Shown piece after piece: positions 4,722-21,592 of a DNA stretch of 64,000 nucleotides. Made by a program: the position numbers and the translations under genes. The first letter of the stretch is position 1, and each line of letters opens with the position of its first letter. Source of the stretch: an uncultured SAR86 cluster bacterium (GTDB lineage: Bacteria; Pseudomonadota; Gammaproteobacteria; Magnimaribacterales; D2472); NCBI GenBank assembly GCA_902557575.1, contig CACEAR010000001.1:62001-126000 (forward strand), written 5' to 3'. The notes under the pieces are model-generated. The model searched no databases and had not been told where the DNA came from. It was given only the letters and a program-made list of their open reading frames with translations.

Positions 4722-5972
4722 ATGGATAAGTCAGTATTAATTTTTTATGCAATACCAGTTTTTTTTCTATTAATAATAATAGAATTCATCTACGGTCTAA
4801 TCATTAAAAAGAATACATATAGAATTAATGATACTTTTGTAAGTATCTCTATTGGCTTAATTAGCAGATTCCCCGTTATATTGAATTTAGGCTTTAATGC
4901 TTTCCTTTTTACTTTAGCGGCTACAACTTTTAATCTTAAACTACTTCCATTAGATAGCTGGGTAACTTGGGTTATAGCTTTCTTAATGTATGACCTAACC
5001 TACTATATCCAACATAGACTGCACCACGAAATAAAAATCTTGTGGGCTACACATGTTGTTCATCATCATGGTGAAGAATATAACCTAGCCACTGCTTTGA
5101 GGCAGACAAGTACAGGCTTCCTATGGAAATGGATGTTTTATGTACCTATGATGGTGGTTGGGATACCTGCGGAAGTATTTGCAACAGTCGGTGGAATTAA
5201 TCTTCTATATCAATACTGGGTTCATACTGAACATATTCCTAAACTAGGCTGGATGGAAAAAATTTTCATTACCCCGTCAAATCATAGAGTTCATCATGCA
5301 AAAAATCCTGAATATATTGATGCAAACTATGGAGGCGTCTTTATTATTTGGGATAGAATCTTTGGAACTTATATCGAGGAAAAAGATGATATTAAGCCTG
5401 TATATGGAACTGTTAAAGCATTAAATAGCTGGAATCCAGTCTGGGCAAATTTTCAAGTTTTCTACAATATGTTCTTGGATTCTATGAGAACTAAAAAACT
5501 CTCTGATAAATTCAAAGTTTGGTATGCCCCAACTTATTGGCGTCCAAGTGATGTAGAAGAAAAGTATCCAAGCAAGCCAGTTGATCTAAAGAATAAATAT
5601 AATCCTTTTATGTCAACTTCAACCAAAGTCTTCGCTGCAATACAGATGCTAGCGATGATTTTGATTTCTAATTCATTATTTCTAAATATAAGCAGTTTTT
5701 CATATGAGCAGGTAGCAATATTTGGTGCCATTTTAGTTGTCATTCCAACAATAACTGCATTATTGATGCAAAATAGCCCTTTTGCTCTCCTTAGTGTGGG
5801 TACCTTAAATTTAGCTATTTTGATCATTTGTTTTTCTGGTCTAGTCCCTCTTCCAGCTCTTGCTACGCAATTTACATTATTCACTAGTTTGATAAATATA
5901 TTATTCTTTGTTTATCAAATAACTTTTGCTGGAAAATATGAAGAATTCAAACTTAGCAATATCAGATCGTAG
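4722..5972 (+). CDS. sterol desaturase / fatty acid hydroxylase family di-iron membrane enzyme (AGMO-like)
   Basis: Histidine boxes HRLHH, HVVHHHGEEYN, SNHRVHHAKN; multi-TM C-terminus. Confidence 0.85.
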   Translation: MDKSVLIFYAIPVFFLLIIIEFIYGLIIKKNTYRINDTFVSISIGLISRFPVILNLGFNAFLFTLAATTFNLKLLPLDSWVTWVIAFLMYDLTYYIQHRLHHEIKILWATHVVHHHGEEYNLATALRQTSTGFLWKWMFYVPMMVVGIPAEVFATVGGINLLYQYWVHTEHIPKLGWMEKIFITPSNHRVHHAKNPEYIDANYGGVFIIWDRIFGTYIEEKDDIKPVYGTVKALNSWNPVWANFQVFYNMFLDSMRTKKLSDKFKVWYAPTYWRPSDVEEKYPSKPVDLKNKYNPFMSTSTKVFAAIQMLAMILISNSLFLNISSFSYEQVAIFGAILVVIPTITALLMQNSPFALLSVGTLNLAILIICFSGLVPLPALATQFTLFTSLINILFFVYQITFAGKYEEFKLSNIRS

Positions 5973-7059
5973 ATTTCTCAGGTCTCCTTTTTTTAACTGC
6001 TATCATCATGAAGACGTTCTTTATGGAGTCTATAACAATAGGTTATACCCTCTTAGCTGCGGATATGATGACCAAGATCATTACAGGCATCTTCGAAAAT
6101 ACTGTTGCTTGTATGATGTGCCTGAAACTCCTTTAAGAATAACCGGCAAAGATAGGAAAAAGTTCTTAGAAAGAATATTTACTAGAAATATAGATAAGAT
6201 AAAAACTGGCAGGGCCGTTTATGCATTTGCCTGTAATCATGATGGTGGGATATTAATGGATGGAGTTTTAATGCATCCAAGCGAAAATGAATTTATTTAT
6301 GTTCAAGCAAATGGCGATTTCATTAATTGGGCAACTGCGAACATAGGTAATCTTGATGTAAAAATAGAGGACTTTAATTCTTGGGTTCTTCAAATACAAG
6401 GGCCAACTTCACTAGATGTTCTCTCAAAAATTACTGACATCAATCTAGAAGAATTTACATATTATTCATGCTCTAAAGTAAAAATCCTTAATAAAGATTT
6501 TTATGTTTCGCGATCTGGTTGGACTGGAGAAAAAGGTTTTGAACTATATTCCGATGGTGATAATTTTTCAGGAGAAGAGCTGTGGAATTATCTTCTTGAA
6601 GCTGGAAAAGATGACAAGCTCATTGCTTCAGATATTGCATCAATGCATATAAGAAGGATTGAGGCTGGAATACTAGATTATGGTACAGATTTCGATCAAA
6701 GGCTTGACCCTTTTGATCTTGGTTTACAGAAATTTATAGATTTTGATAAAAAGAATTTTATTGGCAAAGAAGCGTTAGTAAAAAAAGAGAAAAGTCCTAT
6801 AAAAATTAGGGGTATAAAGTGTCCTTCCGTAAAGCCGGTTGTTGATGATGAATTACAGTCACTTGATGGAAAAATTATTGGATCCGTTACAGCCGGAGCG
6901 TGGTCTCCTTTTCTTGAAGCCGGTATTGCCATAGTGCAATTAAATTGTGGTTTGGAGAATGTTAGTGAAGCCAAATTAAAAAATAGCGGAGGCATTCATG
7001 ATGTTATGATATGCGACTTACCATTCCATGATAAAGAAAAAAATATACCAACAGGTTAG
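5938..7059 (+). CDS. GcvT-family folate-dependent aminomethyltransferase/demethylase (DmdA-like)
   Basis: RSPFF...VYNNRLYP, LYDVPETPLRITG, HDGGILMDGVLM, LQIQGPTSLDVL, SRSGWTGEKGFELY, RRIEAGILDYG, FIGKEAL; ATG at 5938 preferred over the track TTG at 5926. Confidence 0.8.
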   Translation: MKNSNLAISDRRFLRSPFFNCYHHEDVLYGVYNNRLYPLSCGYDDQDHYRHLRKYCCLYDVPETPLRITGKDRKKFLERIFTRNIDKIKTGRAVYAFACNHDGGILMDGVLMHPSENEFIYVQANGDFINWATANIGNLDVKIEDFNSWVLQIQGPTSLDVLSKITDINLEEFTYYSCSKVKILNKDFYVSRSGWTGEKGFELYSDGDNFSGEELWNYLLEAGKDDKLIASDIASMHIRRIEAGILDYGTDFDQRLDPFDLGLQKFIDFDKKNFIGKEALVKKEKSPIKIRGIKCPSVKPVVDDELQSLDGKIIGSVTAGAWSPFLEAGIAIVQLNCGLENVSEAKLKNSGGIHDVMICDLPFHDKEKNIPTG

Positions 7060-7061
7060 AA

Positions 7062-7922
7062 ATGTTTGATGATAAAGAATTAATTTTTACTGCGGAAACA
7101 ACACCAGATCTTTCTATGGATTTAGAAAGCAGTGTCAATAAAATTGCACCCTTAGTTGGTTTAGCGGATGCTGTAAATGTCACTGATTCACCAAATTGTA
7201 AAACTAAGTTATCCAGTATTCTTGTTGCAGCAGAAATTAAGAAAAAAGGACTAGATGTTATTCTGCAATTAACAGGTAGAGATAGAAATAGGATTGCCAT
7301 AGAATCTGAAATAATTGGTGCTGCTTCAATAGATATAAATAAGGTTCTTTGTTTGACTGGTGACCAACCTGGTGAAAATGGTCCTAAAGCTGTAAATGAA
7401 TTTAATGGTGCTTCCCTTATTGAGTTAATTGATACACTCAATTCAGGAAAAATAACAGATGGAACACAGATTGCTTCTCCAAAAGAAATCTATGCAGGAG
7501 CCGCAGATGATTTGTATACCCATCAATCCAAGCCAGAGGCAATCGGTTCCTTGATGTCCAAGATAAATTCAGGTGCAAAGTTTGTACAAACTCAATATTG
7601 CTTTGATATAGATATTATAAAGTTCTATTCAGATTTACTTTTAAATAATGGGAAAGATGATTCTTGGAAAGTATTAGTCGGCATGGGTCCATTAAAGTCT
7701 GCAAAACAGGCAGATTGGATGAGAAAAAATCTTTGGGGTATAAATATTTCTGATGAAATTGTAGAACGATTAGATAAAAGTGAGGATCCAATTTCAGAAG
7801 GTGAAAAGATATGCGTTGAGCTCATTCATCAAATCAAAGATCTTCCAGGTATTGATGGAGTTCATCTCATGGGTCCTAATTGCGAAAGTCAGTCTGCAAA
7901 TATAATCAAAGCTTTAACTTAA
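7062..7922 (+). CDS. MetF-like methylenetetrahydrofolate reductase
   Basis: TAETTPDLS, VNVTDSP, CLTGDQPG, GAKFVQTQYCFDI, VGMGPLKSAKQADWM, DGVHLMGPNCE. Confidence 0.8.
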   Translation: MFDDKELIFTAETTPDLSMDLESSVNKIAPLVGLADAVNVTDSPNCKTKLSSILVAAEIKKKGLDVILQLTGRDRNRIAIESEIIGAASIDINKVLCLTGDQPGENGPKAVNEFNGASLIELIDTLNSGKITDGTQIASPKEIYAGAADDLYTHQSKPEAIGSLMSKINSGAKFVQTQYCFDIDIIKFYSDLLLNNGKDDSWKVLVGMGPLKSAKQADWMRKNLWGINISDEIVERLDKSEDPISEGEKICVELIHQIKDLPGIDGVHLMGPNCESQSANIIKALT

Positions 7923-19874: not shown

Positions 19875-21437
19875 TTAAGAGTTGTTTTCAATCAATAAGT
19901 TTGGTTGATCTTTACGTTTTTTAAGAAGAAATTCATCATATAGCTTTCCCGTTGCCGTATATGCGCGGAACCTAAGATTATCTTTGTTAATATCTATAAT
20001 TTGATAGAGCTGAGTATTTTCTCCAAGCTTTTTTGCATATGAACCTTTAGTAATTTCATACATTTTTGGTCCGCTTACTGAAACAACATGGACAGTGCCG
20101 ATTTCTGGATCATAAGCTTGCTGATAACCTGTTGGAATATTTTCAACTTTTTTTGCATCAATTAGGCCGGTACGAGAGTAGGTATGATCGTGCCCGCTTA
20201 AAACAAGATCAACTTTAAATTCATCAAGTAATGGTTTCCATAGTTGACGCATTTCTAAATTATCTCGATCTGATGCAGGAGAATATAGTGGATGGTGAAA
20301 TGTAATTATTGTCCAACGATTATCATTCTCTTCTAGAACTTTTCTAAGCCAATCTACTTGAATCTCCATTTCAATATTTGAATCAAGCGATATAAAACGA
20401 ACACCTTGGTAATCCAGATAGTATAAAGTCTCTTTTAATCGTTCATCGGGAACATTCTGGATTGGAAAAGAGAATTGTGGTCTCCAATGATTGCTAACCT
20501 TTTGAATACCATCCGGATTTTGAAGACGATCATATAGTGGAGCTTTGCCACCCAAAATTGGTTTATCTATAAGTTCTTCTTTTTTGTACCCCGTAATTAA
20601 TTCAATGCCCTCATCAGCATCTATTATTTCTCCAGAATCTTTAATCTTTATTGTTCCTGTTCTATTTTGAAAGTCTTCGATATCAACAATAAAGATCTCT
20701 GGATTATCATTGTTTAAAGATTCAATTTCGATATTGATAGGTTGGCCATCTTTGTTTGTCCATATTCTTTTAGTCTCAGAATCTTTTTGATATTCATGAT
20801 TGCCAGGGGTTGCTATTACAGGAATTGTTCCATTTACCCAATCAGGACCCTGATGCCATTCACCCCATTGTGAGTCCATATTGTGTTCATCAATTAAATC
20901 ACCAGCATGTAATGTAAATGCAGCTCTTGGTGCGTCACGAAAAGCTTCCCTAAAAACTCTTGACCAATGAGTTCTCACTTCATTTTGTGCGTCACCGAAA
21001 TAAATAAAACTGAAGGGATCTTCTGAAGAGCTTGCAGTTTTAAAGTGATAATACTCTGTCCAATTTACTCCATCTCCAACTCTATAAGCATATAGAGTAT
21101 TGGGTTGAAGATTCTTAAAAGTAACACTATGGTAATGAGCATCATTTATATCACTCTCGAAGTAACTTGTTTCTGCTTTAAACTCATCTGGCTTAAGCGC
21201 CCTCCCATTTGCATTTGCTATAGCAAGCTGTGCAAGCCCCACTTCGATAGATGTATCAGTTCTCCATGTTACTGCTTGGGTTGTTGCAGGATCATCATTC
21301 CAAGTTAAGACTACTCTATCTGGCAGAGGTGTTGGAGCATGTGCCATTTCGTCAGGATACTTCTCAATAGAAGAATTTGGATGCGATAGAAGAGTTATCG
21401 AAAAGAAGAAAGTTAAAAAATAAAAAAATCTGTGCAT
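19875..21437 (-). CDS. secreted purple-acid-phosphatase-like metallophosphoesterase with PAS-like insertion
   Basis: Signal peptide; FnIII-like N-terminus; YFGDAQ, LHAGDLID, GNHEY, TFHHPLYS, GHDHTYSRTG metal motifs; IKDSGEIIDADEGIELITGYKKEELIDKPI resembles a PAS core. Confidence 0.85.
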   Translation of the reverse strand: MHRFFYFLTFFFSITLLSHPNSSIEKYPDEMAHAPTPLPDRVVLTWNDDPATTQAVTWRTDTSIEVGLAQLAIANANGRALKPDEFKAETSYFESDINDAHYHSVTFKNLQPNTLYAYRVGDGVNWTEYYHFKTASSSEDPFSFIYFGDAQNEVRTHWSRVFREAFRDAPRAAFTLHAGDLIDEHNMDSQWGEWHQGPDWVNGTIPVIATPGNHEYQKDSETKRIWTNKDGQPINIEIESLNNDNPEIFIVDIEDFQNRTGTIKIKDSGEIIDADEGIELITGYKKEELIDKPILGGKAPLYDRLQNPDGIQKVSNHWRPQFSFPIQNVPDERLKETLYYLDYQGVRFISLDSNIEMEIQVDWLRKVLEENDNRWTIITFHHPLYSPASDRDNLEMRQLWKPLLDEFKVDLVLSGHDHTYSRTGLIDAKKVENIPTGYQQAYDPEIGTVHVVSVSGPKMYEITKGSYAKKLGENTQLYQIIDINKDNLRFRAYTATGKLYDEFLLKKRKDQPNLLIENNS

Positions 21438-21514
21438 AACGGTATAGATTTTACTCGAAAAAATTTATGTAAGTGTGGCTAAGAAGAAACTTTTTGTATC
21501 AGGTTTGAAAAAGA

Positions 21515-21592
<78 letters not shown>

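Follow-up and report, generated by a model that had tools for sequence, protein, structure and literature searches.

A probable circularly permuted mini-PAS domain inserted next to a metal-ligand motif of a secreted phosphatase-like enzyme from SAR86 bacteria

The purple Fe(III) charge-transfer band of purple acid phosphatases (PAPs) arises from a tyrosine metal ligand in the motif GDxxY. In an ordinary PAS domain, elements A to D are followed by helices E and F and then by strands G, H and I; the sheet order is B-A-I-H-G, in which Iβ and Aβ are neighbours, and helices E and F normally close or line the ligand pocket. Most canonical PAS domains are found in the cytoplasm (PMC10468136), and the literature describes PAS domains as sensors inside the cell, whose extracellular counterparts are the Cache domains (PMC10468136, PMC4822843). 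For the DcuS/CitA domains, circular permutation was at one time proposed (PMC4822843). In the open-access literature, seen mostly as titles and abstracts, we found no description of a natural permuted PAS domain or of a PAS domain within a PAP-like enzyme.

The DNA analyzed here (the window) is a stretch of 64,000 nucleotides from an uncultured SAR86 cluster bacterium. It encodes a PAP-like enzyme carrying an extra domain, and the features of this locus are as follows.

19875–21437, minus strand: gene for a secreted PAP-like metallophosphoesterase with an inserted domain (520-residue ORF)
21384–21437, minus strand: probable Sec signal peptide, an N-terminal hydrophobic helix, residues 1–18 (MHRFFYFLTFFFSITLLS; helix 2–16 in the model)
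21036–21323, minus strand: purple acid phosphatase N-terminal (fibronectin-like) domain, residues 39–134 (PF16656)
20790–21014, minus strand: metallophosphoesterase domain, part 1, residues 142–216, with the motifs GDAQN, GDLID and GNHEY (PF00149)
20526–20783, minus strand: inserted domain, residues 219–304 (boundaries ±5), absent from some relatives and folded alone by AlphaFold2
20673–20771, minus strand: first half of the insert, residues 223–255, three strands resembling PAS Gβ, Hβ and Iβ with the KDG turn (strands 5–9, 15–27 and 30–37 of the insert model; hhalign)
20571–20660, minus strand: second half of the insert, residues 260–289, matching PAS Aβ, Bβ, Cα and Dα (hhalign, Foldseek)
20163–20489, minus strand: metallophosphoesterase domain, part 2, residues 317–425, with HWRPQF, FHHP and GHDH (PF00149)
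21515–21592, minus strand: tRNA-Ile(GAT), directly upstream of the gene and the apparent left edge of a transferred cassette (ARAGORN; edges of the homology block)

The 520-residue protein matches PF16656 (E=2e-19) and PF00149 (E=6e-17), both above the cut-offs, and its closest structural matches in Foldseek are plant PAPs (E 1e-21). The N-terminal helix is probably a Sec signal peptide, judging from its sequence and model, and the N-termini of the full-length relatives inspected are likewise hydrophobic. Among the metal-site residues, Asp149 and Asp180 are near-invariant, and Asn213, His214, His381, His382, His416 and His418 are invariant in the alignment of relatives; these residues are conserved in carriers and non-carriers of the insert alike. 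Asp183, the last residue of GDLID (residues 179–183), aligns with the PAP tyrosine ligand, and this position is Asp or Asn in most relatives inspected. Because the tyrosine metal ligand is absent, the enzyme is better named PAP-like than a true PAP. The original prediction of a secreted purple-acid-phosphatase-like host thus stands with respect to secretion, domain composition and structural neighbours, and only the “purple” ligand is missing. A near-invariant histidine, His19, lies just past the probable signal peptide (window positions 21381–21386, residues 18–19), where most relatives have Ser-His or Ala-His. The alignment suggests that the mature enzyme might start with this histidine, which is possibly a metal ligand.

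The segment first singled out (20515–20765, minus strand) corresponds to residues 225–308. The motifs GNHEY (last residue 216) and HWRPQF (first residue 317) are separated by 100 residues, compared with 18 in insert-less relatives L109/L027 and 15 in L110/L028. The excess of ∼82–85 residues agrees with the ∼85 extra residues predicted originally. Residues 219–308, modeled alone by AlphaFold2 from 51 aligned relatives, form five strands (223–227, 233–245, 248–255, 260–266 and 270–274) linked by tight turns and followed by two helices (276–282 and 286–289), with a mean pLDDT of 93.4 and a pTM of 0.82. The same secondary-structure elements appear in the full-length model, and the insert is predicted to be an autonomous, discrete domain. 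It is under purifying selection: dN/dS is mostly 0.09–0.23 in the insert and 0.03–0.12 in the enzyme core, with amino-acid change in the insert ∼1–6 times faster than in the core. At the insert exit (residues 300–304 of alignment A2), Pro300, Leu301 and Arg304 are >90% conserved, above most of the insert. The Asp-Arg pair at this exit is kept in insert-less L109 and is gone in L110.

The second half of the insert is, on sequence and model comparison, a genuine PAS A-B-C-D segment. A profile of the insert aligns with a profile of 30 gammaproteobacterial PAS domains over 35 columns (hhalign E=4.2e-9) and has matches in 136 of 229 gammaproteobacterial genomes. Foldseek superposes the insert on PAS structure 3lyx_B over 33 columns at 0.6 Å with 36% identity, at a Foldseek E-value of only 3.0. 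The invariant Gly283 corresponds to the conserved glycine of the PAS GY/GF motif, and the strands and helices of A to D are predicted in their places. Across 54 relatives, the Pfam families PAS_9, PAS, PAS_3 and PAS_11 match 15, 12, 6 and 5 members, respectively. The PAS-like string noted originally is therefore present and its resemblance exceeds chance; the search that could have returned PAP loops alone matched PAS families instead. Taken singly, the window protein scores under the curated cut-offs, both for TIGR00229 (E=0.0028, 17.8 bits; cut-off 22.9) and for PAS_9 (E=0.046, 14.5 bits; cut-off 27), as would be seen if an elongated PAP loop merely resembled PAS by chance. Such a coincidence is extremely improbable given the independently predicted fold (pLDDT 93), the profile–profile E-value of 4e-9 and the many members matching several PAS families, and a chance loop was rejected on these grounds. 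We consider the insert to be homologous to PAS, though under curated thresholds. None of the searches returned a Cache match, and a viral structure library gave no significant match.

The order of the elements is unusual. In the insert model the three strands of the first half come before A-B, which are followed by C-D. Since the five strands are connected by tight turns, their order in the sheet would be 1-2-3-4-5, which is the PAS order B-A-I-H-G read backwards. No helix equivalent to PAS E or F is found between Dα and the resumption of the enzyme in either the full-length or the insert-only model. We therefore examined the insert as a rearranged PAS domain. Cutting the PAS profile in the D–F region lengthened the hhalign alignment from 35 columns to ∼71, all collinear, and the score of the cut profile with terminal helices trimmed rose from 50 to 58. 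On its own, the first half matches the PAS end in register, with KDG placed on KDG, and scores 15.7 compared with a shuffle mean of 8.9, and none of 300 column shuffles did as well; other segments of the same enzyme reach up to 14.6 against PAS, over fewer columns. Placing the halves in PAS order raised the PAS HMM score by more than 1 bit in 17 of 37 members and lowered it in one, and the members with Pfam PAS matches increased from 18 to 22, 13 to 18, 8 to 12 and 5 to 8. Shuffled first halves never reached the real mean in 100 trials, and shuffled or reversed first halves lowered the PAS scores. The G-H-I signal is strongest in early-branching Opitutales members (mean 6.5 bits versus 0.8), whose individual P values of 0.0000–0.009 (2000 shuffles) overstate independence, as this basal group was picked after the scores had been seen and its members are related. 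A signal clearest in the early branches is expected from descent with divergence.

Based on these sequence comparisons and models, the insert is probably a naturally circularly permuted mini-PAS domain (G-H-I-A-B-C-D) lacking helices E and F. The natural PAS ends, Iβ and Aβ, would have been fused through a turn of four residues. The domain would be joined to the enzyme at its new ends, which would lie at the site of the D-E-F helices, a few residues past GNHE. The evidence for permutation is good if not conclusive, and the reading is supported rather than proven. It also bears on the PAS core proposed originally: a PAS half is indeed present in the second part of the insert, and the insert is an independent PAS-like domain in the AlphaFold2 model (pLDDT 93.4), but the native-order profile matches that half only, the order is permuted, helices E and F are missing, and Foldseek finds no whole-domain sequential match to any PAS structure. 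Foldseek is unable to align permutations, and the missing match is expected under permutation and also under a different fold.

Such a different fold would arise if only the second half were PAS-derived, a captured half-PAS (A-B-C-D) having combined with an unrelated three-stranded meander into a new small fold that looks like a permuted PAS. PAS profiles are strong on residues 260–295 and match hardly any of the first half in SAR86; the topology, a meander of five strands, is simple enough for other origins to be conceivable. Consistent with this, the first half alone matches a Pfam PAS family in none of 37 members, finds nothing useful among PDB sequences and carries only a weak PAS signal within the clade of the window protein. 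The in-register G-H-I signal with its KDG turn, clearest in the early branches, and the better PAS scores of the reordered halves argue against this origin, which we regard as rather unlikely. An ordinary, unpermuted PAS domain was rejected, being at odds with the native-order profile, which never reaches past Dα. The native-order profile matches the tandem PAS protein MmoS (3ewk) and, across a large part of its length, numerous multi-PAS kinases. The multi-PAS kinase alignments inspected place the first half on the inter-PAS helix, not on G-H-I, and these matches are therefore not counted as evidence for an origin at the junction of tandem PAS domains.

The insert begins a few residues past the GNHE metal-ligand motif and, by analogy with PAP structures, is likely to lie near the active-site rim. 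Most likely, the permuted mini-PAS would act as a rigid domain beside the metal site, a lid or interface module that would shape substrate access or oligomerization of the periplasmic enzyme. The original prediction of ligand-gated activity, in which a PAS sensor would gate the phosphatase allosterically, is compatible with either reading of the fold. Ligand sensing is common among PAS domains, and the insert is constrained and adjoins a metal-ligand motif. However, the element order is not that of an ordinary PAS, the E/F pocket region is absent, neither a LOV cysteine motif nor another cofactor motif was seen in the insert sequence, and orthologues without the insert retain all metal motifs. 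Moreover, the host protein is secreted, whereas canonical PAS domains occur mainly in the cytoplasm (PMC10468136). The proposal is thus unsupported, and we consider it improbable. Classical sensing of a ligand or cofactor is less likely because helices E and F are missing; together with the lack of a cofactor motif, their absence makes ligand gating seem no more likely than a lid, specificity or interface role.

Homologues with and without the insert were both found. The gene occurs in 28 of 101 related genomes, and a scan of GTDB genomes, from which 80 relatives were kept (mainly SAR86, with SAR92, Porticoccaceae, OM182, Opitutales and Gemmataceae), showed the insert in nearly all gammaproteobacterial and Opitutales relatives. 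It is absent from SAR86 L109 (identical to L027), L028 of the SAR86 order, Puniceicoccaceae L110, Gemmataceae L103 and L104, and the more distant gammaproteobacterial homologues L142–L146. In a maximum-likelihood tree of the enzyme core, with the insert excluded, the distant insert-less homologues all fall outside the insert-bearing group, while L109 and L110 fall inside, and three changes of presence or absence are required. The history of the insert is most simply one gain and at least two losses; a single insert-bearing clade without losses was rejected (AU p=0.0005 against all carriers as one clade). The insert-less junctions differ, with L028 and L110 retaining residues from before the insert (SEAKR, SKAKR) and L109 those after it (FDR), which fits independent deletions. 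The domain would thus have been gained a single time, by a PAP-like metallophosphoesterase that lacked an insert, before the enzyme spread through Opitutales and marine Gammaproteobacteria. Copying of a PAS domain from the host genome was considered and rejected: in the genome of the window, TIGR00229 finds nothing at E≤1e-3 and PAS_9 finds only the insert at E≤0.01. Copies with the insert also turned up on contigs from a Crocinitomicaceae bin (Bacteroidota; L079) and a Euryarchaeota MAG (L052); they are nested among gammaproteobacterial sequences and reflect either transfer or mis-binning.

Several other SAR86 genomes, including some assigned to another family, share with the window only the block that runs from the tRNA to the gene end (∼1.7 kb, 80–97% identical). 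This block consists of the PAP-like gene and an adjacent tRNA-Ile(GAT) or tRNA-Met(CAT) amid unrelated flanks (window positions 19875–21592; L033, L034, L035 and L037). Such identity between unrelated flanks points to horizontal transfer, and the enzyme appears, from these sequence comparisons, to travel as a one-gene, tRNA-bounded cassette between SAR86 lineages and families. The 3′ half of the tRNA is directly repeated downstream of the gene in L034 (tRNA-Ile, positions 5836–5880, 45 of 45 bp identical) and L037 (tRNA-Met, positions 5606–5647, 42 bp, 88%). These direct repeats resemble the att repeats of tRNA-integrating elements. A further gene (5892–7328) lies beyond the repeat in L034, in a stretch that does not align to L035.

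We put forward only tentatively the overall picture that a PAS domain, circularly permuted in nature, sits beside the metal site of a secreted phosphatase, controls access or activity and spreads with its enzyme on tRNA-bounded cassettes among marine bacteria. If it is true, the PAS fold can be reused within a secreted enzyme, permuted and stripped of its pocket helices, to serve simply as a structural or gating insert. The insert-less orthologues L109 and L110 provide natural deletion controls.

Compared with PAS domains (PF00989/PF13426, TIGR00229), the insert shares the Aβ/Bβ/Cα/Dα segment (G.I..vd.gie.iTGf...eLiGk), a five-stranded antiparallel sheet with the same inferred order and, probably, the KDG turn between the putative strands G and H. 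It differs in its order, read as G-H-I-A-B-C-D instead of A-B-C-D-E-F-G-H-I, in the lack of helices E and F, and in being housed in a secreted enzyme, whereas PAS domains reside in cytoplasmic signaling proteins. Cache/PDC extracellular sensor domains (PMC4822843) likewise represent a PAS-related fold outside the cytoplasm; unlike them, the insert carries a classical intracellular-type PAS motif, is soluble and is not part of a receptor. The plant PAPs (1xzw, 4dhl and 1kbp), the nearest structural neighbours of the SAR86 enzyme, have the same fibronectin-like N-terminal and metallophosphoesterase domains and the same GD, GD, GNHE, H and GHxH metal motifs. In contrast to them, the SAR86 enzyme has an aspartate (residue 183) in place of the GDxxY tyrosine and an additional domain after GNHE.
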